Below the pieces are notes generated by a model that worked only from the letters and a program-made list of their open reading frames with translations, had not been told where the DNA came from and made no database searches. A stretch of 32,816 bases of DNA from an uncultured Coriobacteriaceae bacterium (GTDB lineage: Bacteria > Actinomycetota > Coriobacteriia > Coriobacteriales > Atopobiaceae), in the NCBI GenBank assembly GCA_902797175.1, contig CADBRX010000163.1:1-32816 (forward strand). The letters run 5' to 3'. The position numbers and the translations under genes are program-made. The stretch's first letter is position 1, and each line of letters begins with the position of its first letter. Shown here piece by piece: positions 9,346 to 27,183 of the stretch.

Positions 9346-9354
9346 GCAGTCTGC

Positions 9355-9428: not shown

Positions 9429-9449
9429 GATGCCTGAGTTTGCGCTTCC

Positions 9450-9464: not shown

Positions 9465-9665
9465 ACCATAGAAACCGAGGGTACGGTCACCGAACTGCAA
9501 GGCCTTCTGAAAGGATTCCGGTTCAACTCCGGATCAGTCGTAGCTGTACTAATGGCTCATCGCTGTGTTGGCAATAACGCGCTGCTCAGCGACCCTGTCT
9601 GCAGGCATCCGCCTGTTGGTTCCACCTGCCCTCACAACGGCCGTTTGGCCAGAAGGGCGGGCACT
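9465..9665 (+). promoter_or_regulatory. Divergent cobalamin-riboswitch-like leader with RBS-hiding hairpin
   Basis: The roughly 200-nt leader before the B12 operon contains AAAGGATTCCGG-TTCAACT-CCGGA (stem 9517-9521/9529-9533), resembling the AGGGAA..CCGGTGnnAATCCGG core of cobalamin riboswitches. A degenerate B12-box-like AGTCGTAGCTGT follows. Near the 3' end, CCTGCCCT (9625-9632) pairs with AGGGCGGG (9654-9661), which includes the ribosome binding site of the next gene; an inner GGCC/GGCC stem (9639-9642/9647-9650) fills the hairpin. This suggests translational shut-off when B12 is bound. The match to the consensus is imperfect and needs a covariance-model test. Confidence 0.62.
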
Positions 9666-9668
9666 CTC

Positions 9669-10574
9669 ATGTTTGATGCCTCCACATCACGCCGTACATT
9701 CGTCGTCTCCACTCTCGCAGGTTCCGCAGCGATTCTTGCGGCCTGCTCGGGCAACACCCCCGCGACCGAAGCGGCCCCTGCCGCACCTAAGCCAGTCATC
9801 TTGGTGGTGAGCTTTGGCACCAGCTATGCAAGCAGCCGTCATAACACCATTGGCGCCATCGAATCTGACATCCGCGAGGCTTATCCCGACTACGACGTGC
9901 GTCGCGCCTTCACCGCGCAGATCATCATCGACCACATCGAGAAGGACACTGGTCGCCACATCGACAACTTCGAGGAGGCCATGGACAAGCTCGTTGCCGA
10001 GGGCGTCAAGGAGGTCATCGTACAACCGACGCACCTCATGGACGGCTTTGAGTACACCGACATCAAGAACTCGCTCGAGAACTACGCCTCGTCCTTCGAC
10101 AAGTGCGTGCTTGGCGCACCGCTTCTGGTTTCGGAAGCGGATCAGGTGGCCGTTGCCGAAGCCATCAAGACGTCCATGGAGCGCTACGAGGATGGTGACA
10201 CCGCCATCTGCCTGATGGGCCACGGCACCGAGGCGGAGTCCAACGCCATCTATGCCACCATGCAGGGTATCTTCAACAAGCTGGGCTACAACAACTACTT
10301 TGTCGCCACCGTGGAGGCCTCTCCCACGTTTGACGATGTTGCATCCGCTGCCAAGGAGGCAGGCTTCACCAAAGCGGTTCTGCGTCCGATGATGGTCGTT
10401 GCAGGAGACCATGCCAACAACGACATGGCAGACCCCGAGGATCCGGAGTCATTCATTTCGATCATGACCAATGCGGGGTTTGAGGTCACGTGCGTCATCG
10501 AGGGCCTGGGCCAGCTTGATGCCATCGACGAGATCTACGTCAGCCATGTGGCCGATGCCATCGCGAGCGCATAG
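9669..10574 (+). CDS. cbiK: Exported CbiK-type cobaltochelatase lipoprotein
   Basis: 301 residues from ATG 9669, with AAGGGCGGG 7 nt upstream. The N-terminus has a twin-arginine motif (SRRTFV, 7-12), a hydrophobic stretch and the lipobox LAAC (C26), so the mature protein should be exported by Tat and lipid-anchored outside the membrane. Residues 41-301 match the CbiK chelatase family: VILVVSFGTS start, MGHG with H185 and AGDHAN with H248, the two expected metal/catalytic histidines. Cytoplasmic CbiK inserts cobalt into sirohydrochlorin. An exported form has precedent in Desulfovibrio but is odd as the only chelatase of a synthesis operon. It sits directly before a NEAT-like lipoprotein and an ABC importer, so a role in metal or tetrapyrrole uptake is possible. 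Confidence 0.88.
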   Translation: MFDASTSRRTFVVSTLAGSAAILAACSGNTPATEAAPAAPKPVILVVSFGTSYASSRHNTIGAIESDIREAYPDYDVRRAFTAQIIIDHIEKDTGRHIDNFEEAMDKLVAEGVKEVIVQPTHLMDGFEYTDIKNSLENYASSFDKCVLGAPLLVSEADQVAVAEAIKTSMERYEDGDTAICLMGHGTEAESNAIYATMQGIFNKLGYNNYFVATVEASPTFDDVASAAKEAGFTKAVLRPMMVVAGDHANNDMADPEDPESFISIMTNAGFEVTCVIEGLGQLDAIDEIYVSHVADAIASA

Positions 10575-10614
10575 TCAAGGCTGACGAAAGATCATTGACG
10601 TGGATGGAGGCGCC

Positions 10615-11046
10615 ATGCGCAAGAGGTTGATGGTCCTGTTTGCCAGCGCGCTGCTGTGTGTTGGCGTGGCCCTGTCCGTGGCGGGGTGCTCGGGCAGCAC
10701 GCAGAGAGGCGGGCTTGCCGACGGTACCTACCCAATCGAGGTGGAAACGGATTCGAGCATGTTCCGTGCCGACTCCTGCCAGCTGACCGTAGAGGACGGA
10801 ACATACACGGCCCAGCTCGTGCTGCCGGGGGAGGGCTTCTCAAAGCTTTACTTTGGCACGGCGGAAGATGCGGCCGCGGCGACTGACGGCATCTTTGACT
10901 ACTATCTGAACGACGAGGGCAAGTATGCCTTTGACATCCCCGTCTCCGCACTGGACGAGGAACTGACCATCGCCGCATATGGCCAGCGTCGCGATACGTG
11001 GTATGACCACACCATCGTGTTCCATGCGCCTACGGATGCGGCGTAA
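10615..11046 (+). CDS. NEAT-like (iron-transport-associated) lipoprotein
   Basis: 143 residues. GGAGG lies 4-5 nt before ATG 10615, which is chosen over an in-frame GTG at 10600. The signal peptide ends in a VAGC lipobox (C25). The mature part is one beta-rich domain with DGTYPIEVET, a VEDGTYTAQLVL core, GFSKLYFGTAEDA and FDIPVSALDEELTIAAY. This pattern is shared with the protein encoded at 29102 and resembles NEAT/Ig-fold heme- or iron-transport-associated domains. It lies between the exported chelatase and the ABC importer binding protein, so it probably binds or relays the same ligand at the cell surface. The ligand is unknown. Confidence 0.72.
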   Translation: MRKRLMVLFASALLCVGVALSVAGCSGSTQRGGLADGTYPIEVETDSSMFRADSCQLTVEDGTYTAQLVLPGEGFSKLYFGTAEDAAAATDGIFDYYLNDEGKYAFDIPVSALDEELTIAAYGQRRDTWYDHTIVFHAPTDAA

Positions 11047-11056
11047 GACGTAGGTG

Positions 11057-12253
11057 ATGGGCGTGCGGAAGTCGCGAGCGCTTGAGGTGGCGTTGTGTGG
11101 GCTGGTCTTGGTCCTTGCCTTGACCACCTGTCACGCTGGTCCGACCACCCAAGCCGAGCCGGTGAGCGAGGGCCAGGGCATCACCACACTGGTGGAGAGC
11201 TTCCACAACCCTGACCTGGGCAACGGCTGGCAGGCCACTGGTTCGCTCGACCTCCTCTACGCCAAGCGCTTTACGATTGATGCCTTCGAGGGCGGTTACC
11301 GTCTGCTCTGCCTTGCAGACGGTAACCGCTATCTTGTGGTTCCCGAAGGCGCTGAGGTGCCACAGGGCATCTCGGAAGACATCGTGGTGCTGCAGCGACC
11401 CATCGGTGACGTGTATCTGGCCGCAAGTGACTCCATGTGCCTCTTTGACGCCCTTGGGTCGCTGGACGCCATCACGGTGTCGGGCATCGAGCGCGATGAC
11501 TGGTCCATGGCCTCTGCTCGCGAGGCCATGGACTCCGGATCCATCGTCTACGGCGGGAAATATCGTGCCCCAGACTATGAGCTGCTCGTCTCGCTCGGGG
11601 TGAGGCTCGCGGTGGAGAGCACTATGATCAACCATACGCCCGAGGTACGCGAGAAGCTCATCGAGCTGGGGATTCCCGTGCTGACGGAGCTTTCGAGCTA
11701 TGAGAGCGAGCCCTTGGCCCGTGCCGAATGGGTGAGGCTGTATGGCGTGCTGCTGGACAAGGAGCAGGAGGCGGACGCGGCCTTTCGGCAGCAGGTGGAC
11801 CAGGTGAGCGCGGTGGGAGAGGAGCCTACCGGCAAGACGGTTGTCTTCTTCTACCTCAACAGCAATGGGGCCGCGGTGGTGAGGCGTCCCGGTGACTATG
11901 TGACCAAGATGATCGAACAGGCGGGTGGCACCTATGCCTTCGGTGGCCTTGACGCCGCAAAGGCGGGCTCAAGCAGCGTCACGGTGCAGATGGAGGCCTT
12001 TTTTGCCACGGCCAAGGACGCTGACGTGCTCATCTATAACTCGTCGATCGACGGGGGCGTATCCTCGCTGGACGACCTGCTCTCAAGAAACGAGCTCCTC
12101 AGTGAGTGCAAGGCGGTGCAGACGGGTGACGTCTGGGTGACGGAGCAGGACATGTACCAGCAGATGCTCGAAGCGGGCACCATCATCTCTGACATGCACC
12201 GCGTCCTTTTGGGCCAAGACGAAGGCCTGACCTACCTAAGGCGTCTGACGTGA
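11057..12253 (+). CDS. ABC importer substrate-binding protein (BtuF/FepB type)
   Basis: About 398 residues with an N-terminal hydrophobic signal and an atypical lipobox-like LTTC (C25). The mature protein has the two-lobe helical-backbone pattern of class III binding proteins: VVLQRPIGDVYLAASDSMCLFDALGSLD near the first lobe, the central SYESEPLARAEWVRLYGVLL helix, and a C-terminal ADVLIYNSS lobe. It is followed with a 4-nt overlap by a FecCD-type permease and an ATPase. Family members carry siderophores, heme, cobalamin or cobinamide. A B12 operon favours a corrinoid or tetrapyrrole, but sequence alone does not decide. A GTG at 11054 is an alternative start; the ribosome site is weak for both. 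Confidence 0.8.
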   Translation: MGVRKSRALEVALCGLVLVLALTTCHAGPTTQAEPVSEGQGITTLVESFHNPDLGNGWQATGSLDLLYAKRFTIDAFEGGYRLLCLADGNRYLVVPEGAEVPQGISEDIVVLQRPIGDVYLAASDSMCLFDALGSLDAITVSGIERDDWSMASAREAMDSGSIVYGGKYRAPDYELLVSLGVRLAVESTMINHTPEVREKLIELGIPVLTELSSYESEPLARAEWVRLYGVLLDKEQEADAAFRQQVDQVSAVGEEPTGKTVVFFYLNSNGAAVVRRPGDYVTKMIEQAGGTYAFGGLDAAKAGSSSVTVQMEAFFATAKDADVLIYNSSIDGGVSSLDDLLSRNELLSECKAVQTGDVWVTEQDMYQQMLEAGTIISDMHRVLLGQDEGLTYLRRLT

Positions 12254-13323
12254 GTCCGCACAGAGCAGAAAACGACGTGCGTCTTGACTCGGCAGAAGGG
12301 GCGTACGGCGAGGGACGCGAATCGCGTGCGCTCTGTGTGTATGCTGCCCTGATCGCCTTGCTGGTCTCAGCCCTTGCCGCCAATCTCTGTGTGGGCACGG
12401 TCGGCGTCCCCCTGGATAGAATCGTTCCCATCCTCACGGGCAGGTTCCAGGACGAGGTCGCCTATCAGGTGATTTGGAACATCCGGCTGCCCAGGCTCTG
12501 TGCGGCCGCTCTTCTGGGCGGCGCGCTTGGCCTTGCGGGGCTGCTGCTGCAGACGCTCTTTGCCAACCCCATTGCTGGCCCCTACATCCTGGGCATATCA
12601 AACGGCGCCAAGCTTGCGGTGGCTGTGGTGATGATTCTCGTACTGGGCGAAGAGCGCGCCATGTCATCCTGGATGTCTCTCTTCGCGGCATTCTGCGGCT
12701 CGCTGCTCACCATGATGGCGGTCCTTGCCGTGTCAGGCAGGGTGCGGTCTGCATCGACGCTGGTCATCGTGGGAGTGATGATTGGGTACGTGTGCAGTGC
12801 GGCTACCGACATCCTCATCACCTTCGCGAGCGATGCCAACATCGTCAACCTGCACAACTGGTCATTGGGCAGCTTCTCGGGAATAAACGGTGGCCAGGTC
12901 ATGCTGATCGCTGTCGTGGTGGGCGTGGGTGCCGTCGTCACGTTCTTGCTTTCGAAACCGCTTGGTGCCTATCAGCTGGGAGAGGCGTACGCAGAGAGCA
13001 TGGGTGTGAACGTGCGCTCCTTCCGCATATCGGTCATCGTCATCTCCAGCGTGCTTGCCTCATGCGTCACGGCGTTTGCTGGCCCCATCAGCTTTGTGGG
13101 CGTTGCCGTTCCTCATGTGGCGCGGCGCCTGCTCAAGACGTCGAGGCCCCACGTGGTGATTCCCGCTGCGTTTCTCACGGGGTCGGTGGCGTGCCTCGTG
13201 TGCGACCTCCTTGCGCGGACGCTCTTTGCCCCGGTGGAACTGACGGTCTCCACCGTGACGGCAGTCTTTGGGGCGCCGGTCGTCATCTGGGTGCTCCTCA
13301 GACGCAGAAGGCAGGTGGGCTAG
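12250..13323 (+). CDS. ABC importer permease (FecCD/BtuC family)
   Basis: 357 residues with about 9-10 hydrophobic segments. The GTG start overlaps the upstream stop as GTGA. Family motifs are visible: IRLPRLCAAALLGGALGLAGLLLQTLFANPIAGPYILGIS, the cytoplasmic coupling segment GVNVRSFR, and FAGPISFVGVAVPHVARRL followed by LLARTL near the C-terminus. It would form the dimeric channel for the binding protein encoded upstream and the ATPase downstream. About 30 hydrophilic residues precede the first membrane helix. Confidence 0.9.
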   Translation: MSPHRAENDVRLDSAEGAYGEGRESRALCVYAALIALLVSALAANLCVGTVGVPLDRIVPILTGRFQDEVAYQVIWNIRLPRLCAAALLGGALGLAGLLLQTLFANPIAGPYILGISNGAKLAVAVVMILVLGEERAMSSWMSLFAAFCGSLLTMMAVLAVSGRVRSASTLVIVGVMIGYVCSAATDILITFASDANIVNLHNWSLGSFSGINGGQVMLIAVVVGVGAVVTFLLSKPLGAYQLGEAYAESMGVNVRSFRISVIVISSVLASCVTAFAGPISFVGVAVPHVARRLLKTSRPHVVIPAAFLTGSVACLVCDLLARTLFAPVELTVSTVTAVFGAPVVIWVLLRRRRQVG

Positions 13324-14154
13324 ATGCGACAGACGCCCGATCACATCCCTGGCGCGTTCGTCGAGACACGTGACCTTGCCGTGGGTTATGAGGGACAGGT
13401 GTTGGTCGACGGCATCCAGCTGCAGGTCCGCTCCGGACAGGTGGTCACGCTCGTCGGCCCCAATGGCGCGGGGAAGTCCACCATCCTCAAGACAGTAGCG
13501 GGACAGCTTGACGCCCTCGGCGGCTGCGTGCTGCTCAGGGGCAAGAACCTGTGTCAGGTGCCTGTTCGTGCGCGTGCCCAGGAGATTTCCGTCATGCTGA
13601 CCGATCGCGTACATACCGAGCTTTTGACCTGTGCGGACATCGTGGAGATGGGACGTTACCCGTACACCGGAAGGCTTGGGGCACCAACTCCGGAGGATCG
13701 GCACAAGGTTCGGGAGGCGATGGGGCTTCTGCGGGTGTGGGACCTGCGCGACCACGATTTCATGCAGCTATCGGATGGCCAGCGTCAGCGCGTGCTGCTG
13801 GCCCGTGCGGTCTGTCAGGAGCCAAGAACCCTGATCTTGGACGAACCAACCAGCCACCTTGACGTGCGCTATCAAATCGAGCTCCTTTCGGTGCTGCGCC
13901 ACCTTGCGCACGACCAAGGGCTTGGCATCCTCATGACGCTGCACGAGCTGCCGCTTGCCCGGCGCGTCTCCGACTGGCTCGTATGCGTCAAGGAGGGGCG
14001 GATCACCTTGCAGGGCACCCCCGAACAAGTCTTTGTTCCCTCGGTCATCGATGACCTCTATGACCTGGTGCCTGGTAGTTACGATGCCTTGACGGGTGAC
14101 GTTGCGCTGCCTGAGGGAACGGGCAACGGGAGGGGTGCCCATGCGCAGGCTTGA
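13324..14154 (+). CDS. ABC importer ATPase (FecE/BtuD type)
   Basis: 276 residues. Walker A is GPNGAGKST (45-53), the signature is LSDGQRQR (149-156) in place of LSGGQ, and Walker B is LILDEPTSHLD (170-180), followed by the H-loop in LMTLHELPLA. The ATG abuts the permease stop with no gap. It completes a three-gene importer transcribed under the cobalamin leader. The C-terminus overlaps the start of cbiD by 14 nt. Confidence 0.92.
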   Translation: MRQTPDHIPGAFVETRDLAVGYEGQVLVDGIQLQVRSGQVVTLVGPNGAGKSTILKTVAGQLDALGGCVLLRGKNLCQVPVRARAQEISVMLTDRVHTELLTCADIVEMGRYPYTGRLGAPTPEDRHKVREAMGLLRVWDLRDHDFMQLSDGQRQRVLLARAVCQEPRTLILDEPTSHLDVRYQIELLSVLRHLAHDQGLGILMTLHELPLARRVSDWLVCVKEGRITLQGTPEQVFVPSVIDDLYDLVPGSYDALTGDVALPEGTGNGRGAHAQA

Positions 14155-15295
14155 GCGCTACATAAGCACAGGTGGCAGGCTCCTGCGCTGCGGATACACG
14201 ACCGGCACCTGCGCCGCAGCTGCCACACGCGCTGCCGCCGAGCTCCTTTTGGCCGACGTCACCGTGCCCTCTGTTGTCGTGTCCACACCAGCCGGGGTCG
14301 ATGTCGTCGTTGATGTCGAGAGTGCCGATCGCGGAGACTCATGGGCAACGTGTGCCGTGCGCAAGGATGCTGGGGATGACCCGGACATCACGGACGGCGT
14401 TCTGGTCATTGCGCGGGTTGAGCTATGTGATGGGCCCGATGTGGTGATTGAGGGCGGTGCCGGTGTCGGACGCGTCACCAAGCCTGGGCTCGACCAGGGC
14501 GTGGGCGCGGCAGCCATCAACTCGGTTCCCCGAGCCATGATACGAGATGCCGCCTGCGCCGCCGCGGCAGCCCACGGATATGTCGGTGGGCTGGCAGTTA
14601 CCATCTCCATCCCGGATGGGGTGGAGCTTGCCAAGCGCACGTTCAACCCCCGTCTGGGCATAGAGGGAGGCATCTCGGTCTTGGGGACGAGCGGCATCGT
14701 GCGCCCCATGAGCGAGGATGCGATGATATCGTCCATTAAGCTCGAGCTCAAGGTGCTTTACGCCTCTGGAGCGACGGACCTCGTGCTGGTCCCGGGTAAC
14801 TACGGGCACGACTTTGCCATCCAGATGCTCGGTCTTGGTGAGGAGCATCTGGTAAGCTGCTCGAACTATCTTGGCGCGGCGATTGACGAGGCGGCGCTCC
14901 TGGGCTTCGAGACGCTGCTTTTGGTTGGCCACATCGGCAAGCTCGCAAAGGTTGCGGGTGGCGCCATGAACATGCACTCGCGCGTCTCTGACGGTCGTGC
15001 CGAAACCATTGCTGCCCATGCCGCCATGGCAGGCGCCGCGGCAGAAGACGTCGCACGCATCATGGAGGCTCCCACGACCGATGCGATGATCGACATCCTG
15101 ACGGAGCGAGGTCTGCTCGAGGCAACGATGGCGACGCTGACGGCACGACTCGGGGATAACGTCTCCCATCGTGGCGCTGGTCGCCTGCGAACCGAGGTTG
15201 TGGTCTTCTCCAGACGCCATGGGCTCCTGGGAGCCTCCCAAGGGGCTGCGGAGCTGGTGGAGAGGAGTCGCGCCACGGGAGGGGAGAGCCAATGA
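14141..15295 (+). CDS. cbiD: Cobalt-precorrin-5B C1-methyltransferase
   Basis: 384 residues from ATG 14141, which has GGGAGG 8 nt upstream inside the end of the ATPase gene. The N-terminal RCGYTTGTCAAAATRAA is the hallmark of CbiD, with further family blocks GAGVGRVTKPGLDQGVG and NPRLGIEGGISVLGTSGIV. It methylates C1 of the ring-contracted intermediate in the anaerobic pathway, with SAM as donor. It opens the uninterrupted block of corrin-ring genes. Confidence 0.95.
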   Translation: MRRLERYISTGGRLLRCGYTTGTCAAAATRAAAELLLADVTVPSVVVSTPAGVDVVVDVESADRGDSWATCAVRKDAGDDPDITDGVLVIARVELCDGPDVVIEGGAGVGRVTKPGLDQGVGAAAINSVPRAMIRDAACAAAAAHGYVGGLAVTISIPDGVELAKRTFNPRLGIEGGISVLGTSGIVRPMSEDAMISSIKLELKVLYASGATDLVLVPGNYGHDFAIQMLGLGEEHLVSCSNYLGAAIDEAALLGFETLLLVGHIGKLAKVAGGAMNMHSRVSDGRAETIAAHAAMAGAAAEDVARIMEAPTTDAMIDILTERGLLEATMATLTARLGDNVSHRGAGRLRTEVVVFSRRHGLLGASQGAAELVERSRATGGESQ

Positions 15296-16059
15296 TCCAT
15301 TTTGTGGGAGCGGGCCCCGGTGCGCCCGACCTCATCACCGTGCGAGGGGAGCGGCTGCTCGCGACGACGGACGTGGTCATCTATGCGGGCTCGCTCGTCA
15401 GCCCCGACCTGCTCGCGTCATGTCCTCCCTATTGCGAGATTCATGACTCTGCGACCATGACGCTGGAAGAGACAGTTGAGGTCATGCGCGAGGCGGACGG
15501 TGCGGGCAAGGACTGCGTCCGCCTGCACACGGGCGACCCGGCACTCTTTGGCGCGATAGCCGAGCAGATGGCGGAGCTTGACCGCCTGGGAATAGCCTAC
15601 GAGGTGGTCCCAGGGGTGTCCGCGCTTTTTGGCGCGACGGCAGCGCTGCGCTGCGAGCTGACACAGCCGGGCGTTTCTCAGTCTCTCGTCATCACGCGCG
15701 CAGAGGGACGCACGCCGGTGCCCGAGGGCGAGAGGCTGCGCCTCTTGGCGTCACATGGTTGCACTATGGCGCTCTTCCTTTCGGCGGGACTTCTGAGGCA
15801 GGCGCAAGAGGAGCTACTCTTGGGAGGGTACCCTGCCGAGACGCCGGCTGCGATCGTCTACCGTGCGACATGGCCCGACGAGGCAATCTATCGATGCACG
15901 ATCGGGACGCTCGCGCGTTGCGCGGAAGAGCATGACGTGGGACGTAGCGCCCTGGTCGTGATAGGGGACGTGCTGAAGGGGCAGGGCGGTCGGTCAAAGC
16001 TCTACGACCCGGGCTTTGCCCATGGGTACCGGCCTGCGAAAGGGGGCGTTGAGCGATGA
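15292..16059 (+). CDS. cbiF: Cobalt-precorrin-4 C11-methyltransferase
   Basis: 255 residues of the tetrapyrrole methyltransferase family: GAGPGAPDL near the start (6-14), VIYAGSLV, HTGDPALFGA and VVPGVSALFGATA. The VIYAGSLV and SxLFGAxA features fit CbiF/CobM more than the other ring methylases. It overlaps cbiD by ATGA. It adds the C11 methyl group before the CbiG step encoded next. Confidence 0.93.
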   Translation: MIHFVGAGPGAPDLITVRGERLLATTDVVIYAGSLVSPDLLASCPPYCEIHDSATMTLEETVEVMREADGAGKDCVRLHTGDPALFGAIAEQMAELDRLGIAYEVVPGVSALFGATAALRCELTQPGVSQSLVITRAEGRTPVPEGERLRLLASHGCTMALFLSAGLLRQAQEELLLGGYPAETPAAIVYRATWPDEAIYRCTIGTLARCAEEHDVGRSALVVIGDVLKGQGGRSKLYDPGFAHGYRPAKGGVER

Positions 16060-17129
16060 GGGTGCGCTTGGTCGCCTTTACGTCCCGCGGGCTGGCGCTT
16101 GCGGGAAGAATCGCGGACGTCCTGCGCGGACAGGGCAATGACGTGCAGGTGAGCGGACCTTCTCGCCTTGCTGCCGAGCAACATGCACAGCCCTTCGAGA
16201 GCCTCTCCTCGTGGACGGGGGACGCGTTCGCACATGCCGATGCGCTTGTCTTCGTGTCGGCGTGCGGCATCGCCGTCCGCTCGATTGCGCCCTTCGTGCG
16301 AGACAAGATGGAGGACCCTGCCGTCGTCGTGATCGACGAGCGGGCGCGCTTTGCCGTGTCGTTGCTCTCGGGGCATGTGGGAGGCGCCAACGCGTTGGCG
16401 CGCATGGTGGCGGGAGCCTGTGGCGCAGAGCCTGTCATCACCACGGCGACCGACGTCAACGACGTCTTTGCCGTTGACGAGTGGGCGAAGGGCCAGGGCC
16501 TTGCCCTTTGTGACCGCGAAGAGGCAAAGGCGATCTCGGCACATCTGCTTGCGGGTGAGACCGTGGGAATCCGCAGCGACTGGCCTCTTGGAGGCACGCT
16601 TCCCGAAGGATTGGTCTGGGACGAGGACGGCCTGTGCGAGCTCGGCATCTCGGTCTCGCTTGACCCGGGAAGTCGTCCCTTTGCGCGCACGCTGAGGCTT
16701 GTCCCCCGTGCGGTCACGGTAGGCATGGGCTGCCGGCGTGGGACGCCGGCAGAGGCGCTTGCCTCGGCGCTCGAGGACAGCCTGACGCGGTCAGGGGTGG
16801 CACGCGAAGCCATACGTGCGCTTGCGACCATAGACGTCAAGGCAGACGAGGAGGGCCTCCTAACGCTCGCCGACTGGCTTGACGTGTCGCTTCTGACATA
16901 CACGGCTTCCGAGCTTGCGTCGGTCGAAGGGGCGTTTAGCGCATCGCCGTTCGTCTTCCAGACGGTGGGCGTGGACAACGTGTGCGAGCGGGCGGCATGT
17001 GCGGGCGGCGACCGACTCATTGCTGGCAAGAGGACCTTTGGCGGCGTGACGGTCGCCCTCGCCTGCGGAGATGTGTGCCTTTCCTTCGACCGCCCTGACT
17101 CCTACGAGGCGAGGGGTGATCAATCATGA
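16056..17129 (+). CDS. cbiG: Cobalt-precorrin-5A hydrolase
   Basis: 357 residues. The N-terminal part carries SACGIAVRSIAPFVRDKMEDPAVVVIDE and SLLSGHVGGANALA, typical of the CbiG N-terminal domain. The C-terminal domain starts at VGMGCRRGTPAEAL and includes the ATIDVKADEEGL and FVFQTVGVDNVCERAA blocks. It opens the delta-lactone and releases the C20-derived two-carbon fragment as acetaldehyde, a step found only in the anaerobic pathway. The start overlaps cbiF by ATGA. Confidence 0.93.
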   Translation: MRVRLVAFTSRGLALAGRIADVLRGQGNDVQVSGPSRLAAEQHAQPFESLSSWTGDAFAHADALVFVSACGIAVRSIAPFVRDKMEDPAVVVIDERARFAVSLLSGHVGGANALARMVAGACGAEPVITTATDVNDVFAVDEWAKGQGLALCDREEAKAISAHLLAGETVGIRSDWPLGGTLPEGLVWDEDGLCELGISVSLDPGSRPFARTLRLVPRAVTVGMGCRRGTPAEALASALEDSLTRSGVAREAIRALATIDVKADEEGLLTLADWLDVSLLTYTASELASVEGAFSASPFVFQTVGVDNVCERAACAGGDRLIAGKRTFGGVTVALACGDVCLSFDRPDSYEARGDQS

Positions 17130-17860
17130 AACTGACCTGTGTTGGCATCGGTCCTGGCGGTGGGCGTGACATGACGCTCCGTGCCCGCGAGGCTCTCGAG
17201 GGGGCGGAACTCATTGTTGGCTACTCTACCTATGTGAGGCTTGTCCAAAGGGACTTTCCTCACAAGATGTATCTCGCCACGGGCATGAGAGGCGAGGTTG
17301 ATCGCTGCAGAATGGCGCTTGAGCATGCGGCTGGGGGAGAGCAGGTTGCTGTCGTCTGTTCGGGAGACCCGGGCGTCTATGGCATGGCGGGCCTTCTACT
17401 CGAGCTTGCCCCAGAGTACCCAGGCGTAACGATTGAGGTGATACCCGGGGTGTCGGCGGCCAATGGCGGTGCCGCCATCCTGGGAGCCCCGCTCATGCAC
17501 GACTGGTGTTCCATCTCCCTCTCGGACCTGATGACGCCTTGGGAGGTCATAGAGCGTCGCCTGGTCGCTGCTGCCCAGGCAGACTTTTGCATCGCCCTTT
17601 ACAACCCCTCCTCGAAGGGGCGGCAGGACTACCTGCGCCGCGCGTGCGACGTGCTCCTGAAGACGCGTTCGCCCAAGACGGTTTGTGGGTGCGTCCGCAA
17701 TGTCGGTCGCGAGGGCGAGGAGTGCCGCACCCTCACCCTGCAGGAGCTTCGCGACGCCCAAGCGGACATGCTCACCTGCGTCTTCGTGGGCAATTCACAG
17801 ACCGTCGTGGTGGACGGCCGCATGGTCACTCCTCGCGGGTATCGCCTGGAGGGCCAATGA
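17126..17860 (+). CDS. cbiH: Cobalt-precorrin-3 C17-methyltransferase
   Basis: 244 residues. The SAM-methylase start CVGIGPGGGRDMT is followed by VGYSTYVRLV, CSGDPGVYGMAG and IPGVSAANGGAAILGAPLMHDWCSISLSD, all typical of CbiH/CobJ ring-contraction methylases. The FCIALYNPSSKGR segment supports this assignment. It is single-domain, without the additional C-terminal domain some CbiH proteins carry. It overlaps cbiG by ATGA and cbiJ by 4 nt. Confidence 0.93.
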   Translation: MKLTCVGIGPGGGRDMTLRAREALEGAELIVGYSTYVRLVQRDFPHKMYLATGMRGEVDRCRMALEHAAGGEQVAVVCSGDPGVYGMAGLLLELAPEYPGVTIEVIPGVSAANGGAAILGAPLMHDWCSISLSDLMTPWEVIERRLVAAAQADFCIALYNPSSKGRQDYLRRACDVLLKTRSPKTVCGCVRNVGREGEECRTLTLQELRDAQADMLTCVFVGNSQTVVVDGRMVTPRGYRLEGQ

Positions 17861-18618
17861 TGGAAGTCTTGGTCTTTGGCGGGACAGTCGAGGGACGGGC
17901 TCTGGTGGAGTGGCTGTACGGTAGGGGATGCCAGGTGGTCGCCTGCGTGGCAACCGAATACGGCGCAAGCCTGCTCCCCCAAGACGACCATGTGGTATGC
18001 CTGCGCGGGCCGCTCTCTCGTGAGGAGAAGCTGAGTCTCGTGAGAGAGCATGACTTCTGCTGCATCGTGGACGCGACGCACCCCTATGCGCAGCACATCA
18101 CAAAGAGCGTGGCCACGCTAGGGAGGGAGAGTGGCATCGATGTGGTCCGCGTCGTGCGCGAAGGCGGAGACGCAGAAGGTCCCTGGGAGCGGGTAGCAGA
18201 TGCCGCCGAGGCGGCGGCACTGCTTGCAGAGACGCATGGGAACGTGCTCCTGACCACGGGCAGCACTGACCTGGATGTCTACCTGGACGTCCTTCCCGAC
18301 GCCAAGGACCGCCTCTACGTGCGCATCCTTCCCGTCGTGTCCGCCGTGGAGCACGCTGAGCGCCTGGGGATCCCCGCCAGCCATGTCATTGCCATGCAAG
18401 GTCCCTTCTCGACGGAGATGAACGAGGCCGTCCTTCGCCAGTTTGGCATACGGCATCTGGTCACCAAGCAATCGGGCACCTCTGGCGGTTTTGACGAGAA
18501 GGTCAAGGCTGCCGAGGCATGCGACGTGCACGTCATCGTGATCGACCGACCCTGTGAGCAGGGCGGCTCGTCACTTGAGGAGGTCCGGTTCCTACTGGAG
18601 GAGCGCTATGGTCTCTAA
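17857..18618 (+). CDS. cbiJ: Cobalt-precorrin-6A reductase
   Basis: 253 residues from ATG 17857 (a second ATG follows immediately). Motifs are VFGGTVEGRAL (nucleotide-binding start), DATHPYAQHITKS, LLTTGSTDL, RILPVVSA and AMQGPFS...LVTKQSGTSGGFDEKV, which define CbiJ/CobK. It reduces the macrocycle with NAD(P)H before the CbiET steps encoded next. It overlaps cbiH by 4 nt and cbiET by 11 nt. Confidence 0.93.
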   Translation: MMEVLVFGGTVEGRALVEWLYGRGCQVVACVATEYGASLLPQDDHVVCLRGPLSREEKLSLVREHDFCCIVDATHPYAQHITKSVATLGRESGIDVVRVVREGGDAEGPWERVADAAEAAALLAETHGNVLLTTGSTDLDVYLDVLPDAKDRLYVRILPVVSAVEHAERLGIPASHVIAMQGPFSTEMNEAVLRQFGIRHLVTKQSGTSGGFDEKVKAAEACDVHVIVIDRPCEQGGSSLEEVRFLLEERYGL

Positions 18619-19840
18619 GGTCTATGTCATGGGCTTGGGCATGGGAAACCCCGACACGCTGACGCGCGGGGCAATGACGGCTCTCGAGGATAGCCAACTC
18701 ATCATCGGCTCACAGCGCCTTCTGGACTCTCTTGAGGAGTATTGGGGAAGAAAGGTCGCGCTGGTCTCGTCAAGGTCGATCCTCGATGAGCTGCGCTCGT
18801 CGGATGAAGCAGTGGCAAGCGTCGTGATGAGCGGTGACGTGGGCTTCTATAGTGGGGCGAAGGCCCTTCTCGACCTCTTGCAGGACTTTGACGTCCAGGT
18901 CATTCCGGGCGTGTCGTCCCTCTCGTACCTCTGTGCGCGGCTTGGGGTGCCCTGGCAGGACGTCTATGCGACGTCAGCCCATGGGAGGGAGTGTGACGTC
19001 GCGGGAGTGGTGCAGTCACATGCCCGCTCGTTCTTCCTGACGGGGGGCTCCACGTCGCCCTCGGACATCTGCGTGGAGCTGACGTGCCGCGGCCTCGGCG
19101 ACGTGTATGTGCACGTGGGCGAGCGCCTCTCATATGGAGACGAGCGCCTGAGCGAAGGGACGGCCGCCGAGCTCTCAAAACGGAGCTTCGACCCGCTCTC
19201 CGTCGTGCTGGTAGAAAACAAGCGGCCTCTCACGCCCGAGGTCTCCTCTCCCTTCCTCCCCGACGGTGCCTTCCTTCGGGGCGACGTTCCCATGACCAAG
19301 GAGGAGGTGCGCGAGCTTGCCGTGTGCAAGCTGCGCATCCAACCGACAGACATGGTATGGGACGTGGGTTGCGGGACTGGTTCGGTGAGCGTCGAGGCCG
19401 CGCGCGCCGCATGGCAGGGGCAGGTCTTCGCAATCGACCACGACGAGGGTGCCCTGGCCCTCACCGGGGCCAATGCAGAGGCGTTCGGCCTCACCAACAT
19501 ACGCCTGATAGTCGGAGACGCACCCGAGGTGCTTGCGGGCCTCGAGGTGCCCGACCGCGTGTTCGTTGGGGGGTCCGCGGGAAGCCTCGAGAGCATCCTT
19601 GCCCTTGCCATCAGCAAGAATCCGCGTGTGCGCCTGTGCGTGCCTGCGGTCACGTTGGAGACGCTCTCTGAGGCCCTCCGATGTGTGCGCGAGCTCTGCC
19701 TGAGCAACGTTGACATCATCCAGGTTTGTGTCGCACGCGCCTGCGCAGCGGGGCCGTATCACCTGATGCGTTCCGAGAACCCCGTGTATCTTGTCACGGC
19801 TGACGGTCCCGGCGTGAAATCGGGCAACGAGGGAGCGTGA
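18608..19840 (+). CDS. cbiET: Fused cobalt-precorrin-7 C5-methyltransferase / C15-methyltransferase (decarboxylating)
   Basis: 410 residues from ATG 18608, with GGAGGA 4-5 nt upstream within cbiJ. Residues 1-205 are the CbiE methylase (GLGMGNPDTLT, SGDVGFYSGA, IPGVSSLSYLCARLG). Residues about 220-400 are CbiT, a class I SAM methylase with WDVGCGTGSVSVEAA (251-265) and VFVGGSAGSLESI. The fusion is like aerobic CobL, whereas some anaerobes encode separate proteins. It methylates C5 and C15 and decarboxylates the C12 acetate. Confidence 0.94.
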   Translation: MVSKVYVMGLGMGNPDTLTRGAMTALEDSQLIIGSQRLLDSLEEYWGRKVALVSSRSILDELRSSDEAVASVVMSGDVGFYSGAKALLDLLQDFDVQVIPGVSSLSYLCARLGVPWQDVYATSAHGRECDVAGVVQSHARSFFLTGGSTSPSDICVELTCRGLGDVYVHVGERLSYGDERLSEGTAAELSKRSFDPLSVVLVENKRPLTPEVSSPFLPDGAFLRGDVPMTKEEVRELAVCKLRIQPTDMVWDVGCGTGSVSVEAARAAWQGQVFAIDHDEGALALTGANAEAFGLTNIRLIVGDAPEVLAGLEVPDRVFVGGSAGSLESILALAISKNPRVRLCVPAVTLETLSEALRCVRELCLSNVDIIQVCVARACAAGPYHLMRSENPVYLVTADGPGVKSGNEGA

Positions 19841-21228
19841 TCGACGTGGAGAAGCGCGTTTCCCGCATCATGGTCGCTGGGACCTCGAGCGGCTGTGGAA
19901 AGACCACGATCGCCTGTGGCCTCATGCGCCTGTTCTCGCGGCGCGGCCTTTGCGTCCAGGGCTGCAAGAGTGGACCCGACTATCTTGACCCCACATTCCA
20001 CACGCGCATCCTGGGGGTTGCCTCCAGAAGCCTCGACCTCTTCCTGGAAGGGAAGGAGCTGGTGCGCGAGACGCTAGCCACGGGCTCCGAGGGCAAAGAC
20101 CTGACGATCATCGAGGGGGCAATGGGCTACTACGATGGTATAGCCCTGGGAAGCGACGCCTCCTCCTGGGACCTTGCGCGCACGACCCGCACGCCCGTGC
20201 TTCTTGTCGTGGATGCCCGGGGAAGGGCGCTTTCCACGGCCACCGAGGTCAAGGGGTTCGCGAGCTTTCGCGAGCCCTCCCTGATCTCTGGCGTCATATT
20301 GAATCGCGTCTCCGATTCGTACTACCCTTCGCTCAAGTGCATGGTGGAGCGCGAGACGGGCGTTCCCGTCGTGGGGTATCTCCCGCGCATCGAAAAGGCA
20401 AGGCTCGAGAGTCGCCATCTGGGGCTCGTGAATGCCTTGGAGGTCGAGGACCTTCAAAAGAAGATGGACCTTGTTGCCGACGCGCTGGAACGGGGCCTTG
20501 ACGTGGATGCCGTCCTGCGGCTTGCGGATGAAGCACCTGTGATTGCCTACGAGCCACGACGTCTTCCCGAACCCTGTCCCTCGTCGCCTGTCATTGCCGT
20601 CGCCCGCGACGAGGCGTTCAGCTTCTACTATCAGGACAGCCTCGAGCTGCTGCAGCGCCTTGGTGCCCATCTCGAGTTCTTCTCGCCCCTGCGGGACGGT
20701 CATCTCCCTGATGGCGCATGCGGCCTCTACCTGGGCGGAGGCTATCCGGAGCTCCACGCCCGGGAGCTGAGCGCAAACAAGCCCCTGCTTGCGGAGGTTG
20801 CGCAGGCAATCGCCCAGGGCATGCCCACCATAGCCGAGTGTGGCGGGTTCCTCTATCTCCATGAGTCGCTTGAGGACGAGGGGGGACGGGCGTGGCCGAT
20901 GGTGGCCGCCTTGTCCGGGAAGGCTGTGAAGGGCGAGCGGCTTGGGCATTTTGGCTACTGCACGCTCACTGCCACCTGCGATGGGCTGCTGGCAGACAAG
21001 GGGGAGAGCCTTCGGGCGCACGAGTATCACTATTGGCGGACCGAGCGGGATGACCGCGGCTTCTGCGTACGGAAGCCCCAGAGCCACGTCGAATGGGCGT
21101 GTGGGGCGGAGAGCGAGACGCTGTATGCAGGGTTCCCCCACATTCAACTGTACGGCGCCCCTCGAGCTGCGCGCCGCTTTGTGGGTGCATGCGCGGCCTT
21201 TGCCGCAGGCAGGGGGAGTGCGACATGA
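19837..21228 (+). CDS. cbiA: Cobyrinic acid a,c-diamide synthase
   Basis: 463 residues starting with GTG in a GTGA overlap with cbiET. The N-terminal ATPase domain has GTSSGCGKTT (15-24), CKSGPDYLDP and EGAMGYYDG. The C-terminal class I-like glutamine amidotransferase domain (from about 250) has LGGGYPELHA and AECGGFLYL with nucleophile C335. It uses glutamine and ATP to amidate the a and c side chains of cobyrinate. Confidence 0.95.
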   Translation: MIDVEKRVSRIMVAGTSSGCGKTTIACGLMRLFSRRGLCVQGCKSGPDYLDPTFHTRILGVASRSLDLFLEGKELVRETLATGSEGKDLTIIEGAMGYYDGIALGSDASSWDLARTTRTPVLLVVDARGRALSTATEVKGFASFREPSLISGVILNRVSDSYYPSLKCMVERETGVPVVGYLPRIEKARLESRHLGLVNALEVEDLQKKMDLVADALERGLDVDAVLRLADEAPVIAYEPRRLPEPCPSSPVIAVARDEAFSFYYQDSLELLQRLGAHLEFFSPLRDGHLPDGACGLYLGGGYPELHARELSANKPLLAEVAQAIAQGMPTIAECGGFLYLHESLEDEGGRAWPMVAALSGKAVKGERLGHFGYCTLTATCDGLLADKGESLRAHEYHYWRTERDDRGFCVRKPQSHVEWACGAESETLYAGFPHIQLYGAPRAARRFVGACAAFAAGRGSAT

Positions 21229-22199
21229 TGCGTGTCCTCATACTAGCCTGCGCATGCGCGCTTGACGCGCTGCTTGGCGACCCATACTCCATGCCACACA
21301 TCATCAGGCTCATCGGGACGCTCATAGAGAGGGTGGAGGCCGTGGCGCGCAGGCTCTTTCCCGCCACTCCTTCGGGGGAGCGACTGGCAGGAGCGGTGCT
21401 GGTGGCGGTGGTGCTCGCAACATCATGTGCGGCTTGCGCCGTCGTTCTCAGCGCGGTGTGGGCGCTTTCCCCGTATGTGGGCTTCGCGGTCGAGACGTTC
21501 GTCTGCTACCAGATGCTGGCGGCCCGTCAACTGGCCATCGAGGCACAGCGCGTCTACACGGCCCTCAGTGAAGAGGGGCTGGATGCCGCGCGCAAGGCCG
21601 TGTCGATGATCGTCGGCCGCGACACGCAGGCGCTTGACGAGGCGGGTGTGACCCGTGCCGCCGTCGAGACTGTCGCGGAAAACGCCTCCGACGGCTTTGT
21701 TGCCCCCCTGCTCTTCATGGCGGTGGGGGGACCGGTCGCAGGTGTGCTCTACAAGGCGGCGAACACCATGGACTCGATGGTTGGGTACAAAAACGAGTCC
21801 TATCGCCATCTGGGTACGGTTGCGGCACGGCTGGATGACGTCTTCAACTGGGTCCCGGCGCGCGTCACGGGCGCGCTCATGTGCATGGCGGCACCGCTCG
21901 TGAACCTGGACGGTGTCGGTGCCTGGCACATCATGACTAGGGACCACGGCAGGCACTCCTCGCCCAATGCGGGGTGGCCCGAGGCGGCCTGCGCGGGAGC
22001 CCTGGGCGTCATGCTGGCGGGACCATCGAGCTACTTTGGCAAAATGGTAGAGAAGCCGACGATCGGAGACGACCTGCGTCCCATCGTCCCTCAGGACATC
22101 ATGGGGGCAAATCGGCTCCTGATGGCGACCGCGGCGCTCGCCCTCATACTCGCCATCGCGCTTTCGTGGGCGGTCCAGTCGTGTCTTGGGAGGTGGTAG
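21225..22199 (+). CDS. cbiB: Adenosylcobinamide-phosphate synthase (membrane)
   Basis: 324 residues from ATG 21225 (ATG also at 21228), overlapping cbiA by 4 nt. It is a membrane protein with several hydrophobic segments and the family blocks DALLGDPYSMPHIIRLIG, TVAENASDGFVAPLLF, NTMDSMVGYKNESYRHLG, DDVFNWVPARVTG and HSSPNAGWPEAA. It attaches aminopropanol phosphate, supplied by CobD encoded next, to adenosylcobyric acid. Confidence 0.94.
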   Translation: MMRVLILACACALDALLGDPYSMPHIIRLIGTLIERVEAVARRLFPATPSGERLAGAVLVAVVLATSCAACAVVLSAVWALSPYVGFAVETFVCYQMLAARQLAIEAQRVYTALSEEGLDAARKAVSMIVGRDTQALDEAGVTRAAVETVAENASDGFVAPLLFMAVGGPVAGVLYKAANTMDSMVGYKNESYRHLGTVAARLDDVFNWVPARVTGALMCMAAPLVNLDGVGAWHIMTRDHGRHSSPNAGWPEAACAGALGVMLAGPSSYFGKMVEKPTIGDDLRPIVPQDIMGANRLLMATAALALILAIALSWAVQSCLGRW

Positions 22200-22200
22200 C

Positions 22201-23268
22201 GTGAGGCGCTTCGAGCATGGAGGGAACGTCTATGCGCATCCTGGGGCCTTGGACTTCTCGGCAAGCCTCAACCCCCTGGGAATGCCACCCCTGGCAAGAA
22301 GGGCGCTCGTGGAGGGGGTTGACGTCTTTGAGCACTATCCCGACCCTGCGTGCCAGGAGCTCACCGATGCCATTGCGCGTTTCGAGGGCGTCGGGAAGGG
22401 CGAGGTCCTTGCGTGCGCAGGGGCGACCGACGCCTTTGCGCGCATCTGCTCGGCGGTCAGGCCAAGAAGGGCCCTGACGTGCGCGCCATGCTATTCGGGA
22501 TACGAGCAGGCATGCGTGCAGGCAGGTGTCGACCTCACGTGGCATGAGCTGTGCTGCGAGGACGGGTACCTCTTGACAGAGCGCTTTGCCGAGCGCATCG
22601 AAGAGGGCGTCAACCTCGTCTTCGTTGCCAATCCCAACAACCCGACCGGTCTTCGTGCCAAGGAGGAGGTCATCCGATCCTGCCTCGAGCGAGCTCGTGA
22701 GGTCGGTGCCCTCGTGGTCCTTGACGAGTGCTTCGTCGACCTTGCTGGCGGCCATGGCTCAAACGCCCTTCTGGGCGAGTTCCCCAACCTCGTCATCGTG
22801 AAGGCGCTGACAAAGACATATGCCCTTGCGGGACTTCGCGTGGGATACGCGCTCTGCTCCGACGGAGGGCTGCTCAGTGCCCTGCGCGATGCGGGACAGC
22901 CCTGGGCAGTGAGCGTCCCTGCCCAGCTGGCGGGCGTGGCGAGCCTGCAGGATGTGGGATATCTGGCCAAGAGCCAGGAGCTGGTGGCAGGGGAGCGAGC
23001 GCGACTGGGCGAGGCCCTTCAGGCGCTCGGCCTGCACGTGCTTCCCTCTGACGCCAACTTCCTGCTCTTTGAGGGGCCAGAGGGGCTGCATGGGCAGCTG
23101 CTGCGATGCAAGATCCTCATACGTTCCTGTGACAACTTCAGGGGGCTCGACAGCCGCTGGTATCGCATAGCCGTTCGTCGTCCCGAGGAAAACGACCTGC
23201 TCGTCCGAGCGCTCGAGCGCCTCCTGCGCGGAGGGACTGAGGACAAGACAGGGGGAGGGGACGCGTGA
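22201..23268 (+). CDS. cobD: L-threonine-O-3-phosphate decarboxylase-type aminotransferase fold enzyme
   Basis: 355 residues from GTG 22201, with GGGAGGTGG in the end of cbiB as ribosome site. It is a PLP enzyme of the class I/II aminotransferase fold: LDFSASLNPLGMP start, PNNPTG (145-150), VVLDECFVDL and KALTKTYALAGLRVGY with PLP lysine K205. It makes aminopropanol phosphate for CbiB. Histidinol-phosphate aminotransferase is a related fold, but the N-terminal motif and the position between cbiB and cbiP favour CobD. Confidence 0.9.
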   Translation: MRRFEHGGNVYAHPGALDFSASLNPLGMPPLARRALVEGVDVFEHYPDPACQELTDAIARFEGVGKGEVLACAGATDAFARICSAVRPRRALTCAPCYSGYEQACVQAGVDLTWHELCCEDGYLLTERFAERIEEGVNLVFVANPNNPTGLRAKEEVIRSCLERAREVGALVVLDECFVDLAGGHGSNALLGEFPNLVIVKALTKTYALAGLRVGYALCSDGGLLSALRDAGQPWAVSVPAQLAGVASLQDVGYLAKSQELVAGERARLGEALQALGLHVLPSDANFLLFEGPEGLHGQLLRCKILIRSCDNFRGLDSRWYRIAVRRPEENDLLVRALERLLRGGTEDKTGGGDA

Positions 23269-24770
23269 TGGGAGCCAAGGCAATCATGATCCAGGGCACC
23301 ATGTCCGGGGCGGGCAAGAGCCTCCTCGTTGCGGGGCTCTGCCGCGTGCTTGCGCAAGACGGCCTGCGGGTCGCACCGTTCAAGTCCCAGAACATGGCCT
23401 TGAACTCCGCAATCACCCGTGAGGGCCTCGAGATGGGTCGTGCCCAGGCAATGCAGGCGGAAGCTGCTGGCATCGAGCCACGTGCCGCCATGAACCCAAT
23501 CCTGCTCAAGCCCACGAGCGATACGGGAAGCCAGGTCATCGTCTGTGGCAGGCCGTTGGCCACCATGCCCGCACGGGAGTACTTTGCCTTCAAGCGGACG
23601 CTGACCGACCAAGTCATGTCGGCATATCGCGAGCTTGCCAGCGAATTTGACGTCATCGTCATAGAGGGGGCAGGCAGTCCCGTCGAGCTCAATCTCAAGC
23701 GTGACGACATCGTCAACATGGGCATGGCAAAGATGGCCCAATCGCCCGTCATGCTTGTGGGAGACATCGACCGAGGTGGCGTGTTCGCGCAGCTTGTGGG
23801 AACGATGATGCTCCTCGACGAGGACGAGCGTGCCATGGTCAAGGCCACGGTGGTCAACAAGTTCCGGGGAGACCCGACGCTCTTTGACGAGGGCCTTGAG
23901 ATCTTGCGTGAGAGATGCGGCGTGCCTGTCGCCGGCCTCATTCCCTATCTGGACGTCGACCTGGACGATGAGGACAGCATGTCCGAGCGCCTGGGACAGA
24001 GACGGGCTGGGGCCCTTCTGGACGTGGCGGTGGTCCGTCTTCCCAAGATCTCTAACTTCACGGACTTCATCGCCCTTGACGCGATGGATGGCGTCGGTGT
24101 CCGCTACGTCGGTTCGGCCTCAGAGCTTGGTGTTCCCGACCTGCTTATTGTCCCAGGGACCAAGGCGACCATGGCAGACCTCTCTTGGCTGCGATCGAGG
24201 GGCCTCGACATCTCGATACGCCGGCTGGCTGCGTCGGGCGTGCCTGTGGTGGGCATCTGTGGGGGATACCAGATGCTCGGCACGCAGGTCGTGGACCCCT
24301 TAGGTGTCGAGGGTGGCGGCCAGATGGATGGGTTGGGCCTCCTTCCCGTCCGTACGGTGTTTGGGACGCAGAAGCGGACGGTGCTCGTCGAGGGGGCGTT
24401 CGACGAGGTTTCCGGGCCCCTGTCGGCACTCTCTGGTCTGCCAGTGCGTGGCTACGAGATCCATATGGGGCAGACCGAGGTTGCGGGACGCTCGCTCGCC
24501 TCAATCTCTGACGGCAGCGTCCCCATGGCGAGCGACGGCTGCCAGGAGGGCAACGTCTATGGCTGCTACCTTCATGGACTGTTTGACCGCCCGGAGGTGA
24601 CGCAGGCACTGGTGGGAGCGCTACTTGCCAGGAAGGGCCTTGACGTCGCATCCGTGCGGGCCGTTGACATGGCTGCCTACCGCCAGCGACAGTACGACGT
24701 CCTTGCCGATGGCATTCGGACGCACACGGACATGCGCCTCGTCCATCGCATCATCGAGGAGGGCCTATGA
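23268..24770 (+). CDS. cbiP: Cobyric acid synthase
   Basis: 500 residues from ATG 23268; an overlapping GTG at 23265 is possible, but GGGGAGGGG fits the ATG better. Motifs are QGTMSGAGKS (9-18), FKSQNMALNS, IEGAGSPVELNL, GDIDRGGVFAQ and the amidotransferase GICGGYQMLG with nucleophile C331. The C-terminal GCYLHGLFD is typical of CobQ/CbiP. It performs four amidations on the adenosylated diamide. Confidence 0.95.
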   Translation: MGAKAIMIQGTMSGAGKSLLVAGLCRVLAQDGLRVAPFKSQNMALNSAITREGLEMGRAQAMQAEAAGIEPRAAMNPILLKPTSDTGSQVIVCGRPLATMPAREYFAFKRTLTDQVMSAYRELASEFDVIVIEGAGSPVELNLKRDDIVNMGMAKMAQSPVMLVGDIDRGGVFAQLVGTMMLLDEDERAMVKATVVNKFRGDPTLFDEGLEILRERCGVPVAGLIPYLDVDLDDEDSMSERLGQRRAGALLDVAVVRLPKISNFTDFIALDAMDGVGVRYVGSASELGVPDLLIVPGTKATMADLSWLRSRGLDISIRRLAASGVPVVGICGGYQMLGTQVVDPLGVEGGGQMDGLGLLPVRTVFGTQKRTVLVEGAFDEVSGPLSALSGLPVRGYEIHMGQTEVAGRSLASISDGSVPMASDGCQEGNVYGCYLHGLFDRPEVTQALVGALLARKGLDVASVRAVDMAAYRQRQYDVLADGIRTHTDMRLVHRIIEEGL

Positions 24771-25420
24771 GCGAGCTAGACGGTCTTGAGTACGTGAGGC
24801 CTGACGAAATCGAGCGCCGGAGCTTCGAGATCATTGGCCAGGAGCTGGGAGAACATGGCTTTGACGAGCTTGAGGGGCTAGTCGTCAAGCGGGTGATACA
24901 CACCACGGCGGACTTTGACTATGCCAAGAACCTGTGCTTTACCCCACGTGCCGTGCGCCGGGGCATCGAAGTCCTTGGTGCCGGCGCCACGGTGGTGACC
25001 GACACGACCATGGTCGCGGCGGGAATCAACAAGCGCGTGCTGGGAAGCTTTGGGGGTGAGGTGCGCACCTTCATCGGCGATGCCGATGTCGCAGCCGAGG
25101 CGCACTCGCGTGGGGTGACGCGCTCCGTTGTCGCTATGGAGCGTGCGTCTGCGCTCGAAGGGCCACTCGTCTTTGCCATAGGCAATGCCCCCACGGCGTT
25201 GGCGCGCCTCGCTCGGCTCATATCTGAGGAGACGATGCCCGAGCCCGCGCTCGTCATCGGCGTCCCGGTAGGGTTCGTCAACGTGGTCGAGTCTAAGGAG
25301 CTCATGTGCGCGACGCCCGTGGAGTCAATCGTTGCCCGGGGACGCAAGGGAGGCTCCAATGTCGCTGCCTCCATCGTGAACGCTTTGCTGTACCTTGCCT
25401 CGGGCGACCGAAGGGAGTGA
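24767..25420 (+). CDS. cbiC: Cobalt-precorrin-8 methylmutase
   Basis: 217 residues, overlapping cbiP by ATGA. The N-terminal IERRSFEIIGQELG and the catalytic-site segment VKRVIHTTADFDYAKNL (H45 as the likely proton-transfer histidine) identify CbiC/CobH, with VVTDTTMVAAGINK and IGNAPTALARL further on. It moves the C11 methyl to C12, giving cobyrinate. Its place after cbiP is out of biochemical order but within the same transcript. Confidence 0.94.
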   Translation: MSELDGLEYVRPDEIERRSFEIIGQELGEHGFDELEGLVVKRVIHTTADFDYAKNLCFTPRAVRRGIEVLGAGATVVTDTTMVAAGINKRVLGSFGGEVRTFIGDADVAAEAHSRGVTRSVVAMERASALEGPLVFAIGNAPTALARLARLISEETMPEPALVIGVPVGFVNVVESKELMCATPVESIVARGRKGGSNVAASIVNALLYLASGDRRE

Positions 25421-25431
25421 GGATTCCCAGT

Positions 25432-27128: not shown

Positions 27129-27183
27129 TGGGGATCGTCTCTTTTGCCCGCGACTTGCGATAACGCTTCTTTAGGATGGAGCC

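Follow-up and report, generated by a model that had tools for sequence, protein, structure and literature searches.

The object of this study is a cassette of five genes that precedes a cobamide biosynthesis operon in an uncultured member of the Coriobacteriia (genome G000, an 82% complete assembly). The window, by which we refer to the whole analysed stretch of 32,816 nucleotides on contig C163, contains between galT and cbiD five genes on the + strand, which encode an exported CbiK-type chelatase (9669..10574), a small lipoprotein with NEAT fold and putative role as tetrapyrrole-binding relay (10615..11046), a class III substrate-binding protein of the Peripla_BP_2 family (~11057..12253, with a GTG at 11054 as alternative start), a FecCD-type permease (12250..13323) and the ABC ATPase of the importer (13324..14154). 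A conserved structured leader RNA is found upstream of cbiK (9473..9663, + strand), and the nearly complete cobamide operon, which was delineated from profile matches and open reading frames and extends on the same strand from cbiD to cobS (14141..28747), follows without gap. Scanning reference genomes for the chelatase yielded 80 close relatives, and the comparison of their loci revealed that the order CbiK, lipoprotein, binding protein, permease and ATPase is common to most of them, a recurrence that is not explained by chance. The five-gene cassette is conserved across Clostridia and Coriobacteriia.

The chelatase matches PF06180 with 253.9 bits (cut-off 26.2, E 2e-75) over positions 3-261 of 262, and its score of 198.7 bits does not reach the equivalog cut-off of 400 bits of the NCBIfam model for CbiK. 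As described in an earlier note on this DNA, its N-terminus (MFDASTSRRTFVVSTLAGSAAILAAC-SGN), as read from the sequence, carries, in addition to a twin-arginine motif, a lipobox whose cysteine is Cys26, and both elements are kept in close relatives. An export signal is found in nearly all of the 80 relatives, with some N-termini being visible in part only, and it is of the twin-arginine type in Coriobacteriia and of the Sec-type, mostly combined with a lipobox, in Clostridia. The equivalents of His145 and His207 of the Salmonella enzyme are located in the motifs GHG (184-186) and GDH (246-248), which align to its structure (1qgo) as MGHG and AGDHANNDMA, and the HxxxGxEY stretch is equally preserved.

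The best match of the protein in the PDB is FetB of Porphyromonas gingivalis (9b86), which we take to be the same protein as IhtB as their signal peptides match. In a quick maximum-likelihood tree, whose fine branching was not relied on, the chelatase is part of a clade of 44 exported sequences (with a support of 98 in the Shimodaira-Hasegawa-like approximate likelihood ratio test) from Clostridia, Coriobacteriia and one metagenome-assembled genome labelled Alistipes. Exported proteins outside this clade include a pair formed by P. gingivalis FetB and Desulfovibrio CbiKP, a second pair from genomes G098 and G163, and the proteins of G369 and G298. CbiKP of Desulfovibrio vulgaris (2xvx) is likewise exported, with conserved catalytic motifs, but resides on a separate branch; it binds heme, and the same organism also contains a cytoplasmic CbiKC. 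A separate observation concerns two of the compared loci, titled Collinsella aerofaciens (L011) and Ellagibacter isourolithinifaciens (L012), whose CbiK and cassette regions are near-identical, as would result from recent gene transfer or from an assembly that is mixed or wrongly labelled.

In its own genome, the exported protein is the sole CbiK. The search for a second chelatase, which the earlier note had recommended, has detected none in this assembly, where no separate cbiX gene was found and matches to the CbiX profile fall inside CbiK; CbiX was also not detected in the genus. The same search has identified a divergent cytoplasmic CbiK-like protein in two genomes of the genus (G002 and G006). 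We have rejected this protein as a second B12 chelatase of the genus, since it occurs likewise in G003 and G013, both of which are devoid of the exported form, and since G003 in addition lacks the cbi methylases. It is a candidate for another role in tetrapyrrole or heme metabolism; its genes in G002 (L086 8773-9603) and G013 (L087 6614-7444) are found near a FecCD permease and an ATPase. The only B12-type CbiK of the genus is predicted to sit outside the membrane.

The adjacent lipoprotein shows no match to any Pfam family, including NEAT (PF05031), and a clostridial homologue (L043) matches this family below cut-off (E 0.0017). Its relationship becomes apparent in the predicted fold, which agrees with the NEAT-like character proposed earlier. 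An AlphaFold2 model built with 37 sequences (predicted local distance difference test score, pLDDT, of 90) has its top Foldseek matches in the NEAT domains of IsdX1 (3sik, E 8e-5), Hbp2 and IsdX2, with E-values between 8e-5 and 2e-4 and a template modelling score of about 0.64. The window protein contains one such domain, its clostridial counterparts two in tandem. Met 25, Phe 26, Trp 105 and Tyr 106 are invariant and Ser 23 and Asp 107 nearly so. Tyr 106, as part of a WYD sequence, may correspond to the first tyrosine of the YxxxY motif of NEAT domains, and the second tyrosine position is replaced in the sequence TIVF or TLVF. The conserved residues match regions which in NEAT domains line the porphyrin pocket. 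The modelled fold thus supports a tetrapyrrole rather than a bare ion as cargo, without pinning down which tetrapyrrole this would be.

The three remaining genes encode an importer of the FecBCD-type, as previously assigned, with matches to PF01497 for the binding protein (E 1.5e-26), PF01032 for the permease (E 3e-80) and PF00005 for the ATPase (E 3e-28). The relatives of the permease in the PDB are FhuB, HmuU and BtuC. The model of the binding protein (pLDDT 90) displays a class III fold that is closest to a Veillonella binding protein and to proteins binding heme, siderophores or B12, and since the latter three match alike, the fold does not single out a ligand.

The operon downstream of the cassette contains cbiD, cbiF, cbiG, cbiH, cbiJ, cbiET, cbiA, cbiB, a gene for a cobD-type decarboxylase, cbiP, cbiC, cobT, cobC, a gene for a Cys-rich PF04071 protein, cobU and cobS, and hemABCD, cobA and cbiL are all absent from it. 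This absence extends beyond the operon. A genome search did not identify HemC in the own genus or in the genomes G021 and G027, the same genomes contain no CobA above cut-off, and a true SirC was detected neither in the genus nor in G021. The corrin steps catalysed by CbiF, CbiH and CbiE are kept, together with CbiC and, in relatives, CbiL. The better relatives encode five tetrapyrrole methylases, namely CbiF, CbiH, CbiE, RsmI and a CbiL-like protein, with CbiL and RsmI being assigned by sequence and place. Without HemC and CobA the synthesis of precorrin-2 appears impossible in these organisms, yet the pathway from cobalt-sirohydrochlorin onwards is kept. The own genome and genus, G021 and G027 thus show the gene pattern of a precorrin-2 salvager, which is defined by a retained corrin pathway in the absence of HemC and CobA. 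A cultured example of a strain that lacks HemC and harbours the cassette is Ellagibacter isourolithinifaciens DSM 104140. Just 3' of cobS, a short protein (28750-29091) matches the C-terminal part of CobU only, in addition to the full cobU at 27456-27989.

The relationship between an exported CbiK and a missing upper pathway is reflected in a wider survey. We searched 293 evenly sampled genomes of Clostridia and found CbiK in 70, of which 67 were classified by the N-terminus of the protein in the fetched loci and three doubtful ones dropped. HemC is lacking in 10 of the 12 genomes where CbiK is exported only, in none of the six genomes with both forms and in 6 of the 49 with only a cytoplasmic protein (exported-only versus rest 10/12 and 6/55, Fisher p=1.7e-6). 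CobA is absent from all 16 genomes without HemC, including the ten with only an exported CbiK, and present in all eight that combine an exported CbiK with HemC, which include the six two-form genomes. In a second set of 50 genomes with an exported CbiK, partly overlapping with the first, HemC is absent from 26 of 29 where the gene adjoins cbi or cob genes compared to 7 of 21 elsewhere (p=5e-5). Among genomes with a single CbiK, those whose CbiK locus encodes a FecCD permease lack HemC in 11 of 14 cases, the others in 5 of 44. The genomes G098 and G163, whose chelatases belong to a separate export lineage, lack HemC and CobA too, which implies that the pattern does not originate from one event. 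The earlier note had placed the exported chelatase apart from the corrin pathway, which is not what we find: since genomes whose only CbiK is exported are usually devoid of HemC and CobA, the chelatase probably catalyses the entry step of this pathway, outside the cell.

The same survey bears on the alternative that the importer takes up a metal-free tetrapyrrole or corrinoid, with CbiK serving as accessory binding protein and cobalt being inserted inside the cell by an unrecognised chelatase. Such a route would account for the six genomes without HemC and CobA that contain a cytoplasmic CbiK, in three of which (G126, G197 and G284) the CbiK locus encodes a FecCD-type permease, thus suggesting a variant where import of the ring precedes its metallation inside the cell. 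The SirC-like proteins of G027 and G028 also speak for metal-free import. For the system in the window we nevertheless consider it unlikely, since the exported CbiK keeps its catalytic motifs and since the genus contains no second CbiK or CbiX except for the divergent CbiK-like protein, which occurs also in the absence of cbi genes.

Further insight comes from the RNA elements preceding the cassette. The leader in the window has an invariant core (GGATTCCGGTTCAACTCCGG..CAG) across 11 genus-level sequences and 36 predicted base pairs, three of which show two-sided changes. Although it resembles the core of a cobalamin riboswitch by eye, the window contains no match to RF00174 at the gathering score of 31.5 bits, below which also the leaders of relatives remain (9.7 bits for the core of L010 and 16 bits for the leader of L011). 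A model built from the leader of the genus has no copy upstream of cbiL loci. The element is possibly a divergent cobalamin riboswitch. Between galT and this leader resides a nearly perfect inverted repeat (9354-9429) with arms of about 30 bases, which several microRNA models match below cut-off by its hairpin shape. In Clostridia, six of the eight loci that were searched contain RF00174 5' of the cassette (100-116 bits), the other two (L034 and L037) offering little upstream DNA to search. Additional clostridial loci show matches of 41-130 bits either 5' of the cassette or at another place in its cluster, and those preceding a cassette mostly score 100-130 bits, in some cases without any cbi gene in the fetched flanks.

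These riboswitches argue against a function in the remodelling of heme or other porphyrins for the acquisition of iron or a metalloporphyrin, as proposed for IhtB/FetB of P. gingivalis. The idea draws on FetB being the closest structural match of the chelatase and on NEAT domains being heme binders, and in the case of P. gingivalis on the removal of iron from heme that is attributed to IhtB (PMC10913741) and the insertion of manganese into protoporphyrin IX that is reported for FetB (PMC13402209). It is difficult to reconcile with the B12-type riboswitches upstream of clostridial cassettes, with the location of the cassette in cbi operons, with the presence of the corrin-ring gene cbiC in 78 of the 80 genomes tested and with the position of FetB outside the exported clade, and we regard it as very improbable. 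Within the extracellular tetrapyrrole or metal-handling system envisaged in the earlier note, cobalt loading and import of the product are favoured, whereas the stripping of iron from heme is disfavoured because of the cobalamin riboswitches and the co-occurrence with cbiC.

The riboswitches and the linkage to cbi genes would also be expected if the exported CbiK were mainly a high-affinity collector of Co2+ that feeds the importer, perhaps via a carrier tetrapyrrole, with the corrin precursor entering otherwise. Along the same lines, we found no CbiM-like motif in the exported-type loci scanned, in a limited motif test that was confined to fetched loci and returned three matches, two of them to the same gene. 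Cobalt scavenging would neither explain the loss of HemC and CobA in genomes where CbiK is exported only nor their want of a cytoplasmic CbiK, and the NEAT fold indicates a tetrapyrrole, which together make this explanation unlikely.

Instead, the gene content, the export signals, the catalytic motifs and the NEAT fold, together with the linkage of clostridial cassettes to riboswitches and the association with loss of the upper pathway, lead us to propose, with a probability of about 0.6, that the cassette constitutes an extracytoplasmic metallation and uptake system for a cobamide precursor. In the proposed mechanism, the CbiK lipoprotein, facing outwards from the membrane, would load scavenged environmental sirohydrochlorin (factor II) with Co2+. 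The tetrapyrrole would be held by the NEAT lipoprotein and handed over to the binding protein, and the permease and ATPase would import cobalt-sirohydrochlorin, from which CbiL, CbiH and the remaining cytoplasmic enzymes would finish the cobamide. The cassette would stand in for the missing upper pathway where HemC, CobA and SirC are lacking, whereas in genomes with a full pathway the cytoplasmic CbiK would serve de novo synthesis and the cassette provide an extra scavenging route. The odds appear even that cobamide synthesis takes its first cobalt-dependent step in the extracellular space, with sirohydrochlorin-type rings released by others being metallated at the membrane surface and imported as cobalt complex, and that some lineages without CbiL may salvage factor III, the next ring, which is methylated at C20.

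Several observations weigh against an extracytoplasmic metallation and uptake system. The p-values are too small as the genomes are related, many of which are draft assemblies, and the genome-wide survey in Clostridia covers CbiK as the only chelatase, next to HemC, CobA and CbiL. The leader in the window is a possible riboswitch that Rfam does not confirm. G298, G348 and G028 encode HemC and CobA even though the exported protein is their only CbiK, and G028 contains SirC as well, whose relatives CysG and Met8p can act as chelatases. In G027, a SirC-like precorrin-2 dehydrogenase (L088 7196-7942) is found without HemC or CobA and might oxidise imported precorrin-2. Finally, in six genomes with an exported CbiK and no HemC (G144, G191, G212, G247, G313 and G271; loci L177-L182), two profile searches did not detect CbiL in spite of a near-complete cbi operon with the later genes kept, and cobalt-sirohydrochlorin alone would thus not suffice; these organisms might salvage a ring that is already methylated at C20, or their CbiL might be unrecognised.

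The closest known system is Iht of P. gingivalis (IhtA-E), which likewise consists of a CbiK-like lipoprotein that is exported and of a binding protein, a permease and an ATPase (PMC10913741), but differs in the presence of the TonB receptor IhtA, in having no described NEAT lipoprotein and in being regarded as a system for the handling of heme-iron or Mn-porphyrin. In the quick tree, its chelatase pairs with Desulfovibrio CbiKP. The production of IhtB was reported not to be under the control of PgFur (PMC10913741), and P. gingivalis lacks the steps leading to precorrin-2 (Roper 2000, as cited in PMC6461909). CbiK of Salmonella (1qgo, 2xwp), which inserts cobalt into sirohydrochlorin (PMC7689651), shares family and catalytic residues, but it is cytoplasmic and not joined to a NEAT lipoprotein or importer. 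The importers BtuFCD and HmuTUV, with BtuC and HmuU as relatives of the permease, and the Isd relays of Gram-positive bacteria, with their shared NEAT fold, differ from their counterparts in the window, which are joined to an exported chelatase and a cbi operon. A corrin pathway without precorrin-2 synthesis is also a feature of the tetrapyrrole precursor salvagers defined by Shelton et al., who, in the available text of their paper, verified salvage of 5-aminolevulinic acid only and named no uptake route for later precursors (PMC6461909). Precorrin-2 salvagers account for about 0.6% of genomes (PMC8123684). In the literature searched, which includes few subscription papers, we did not find a previous suggestion that an exported CbiK provides the entry to salvage.

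Distant from the cassette, the window encodes a TIR-domain protein (1695-2837, TIR_2 E 5e-14) that contains a hydrophobic segment and a C-terminal extension, matches Thoeris ThcB4 weakly and adjoins a TetR regulator and sugar genes.

From where bacteria that do not synthesise uroporphyrinogen III and precorrin-2 but retain the corrin pathway obtain their ring is an open question, for which the cassette offers a concrete and testable candidate for uptake. If correct, our proposal would supply the missing uptake route of precorrin-2 salvagers, and it would imply that gut and rumen bacteria trade sirohydrochlorin-type intermediates as nutrients. It would also explain the export of a biosynthetic chelatase, and it would make IhtB/FetB of P. 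gingivalis, which has until now been interpreted in terms of heme-iron, worth re-examining. CbiK or CbiX is used to recognise genomes in which de novo synthesis is complete (PMC6593275), and the distinction between an exported and a cytoplasmic CbiK would provide a genome marker that separates salvagers from de novo producers.

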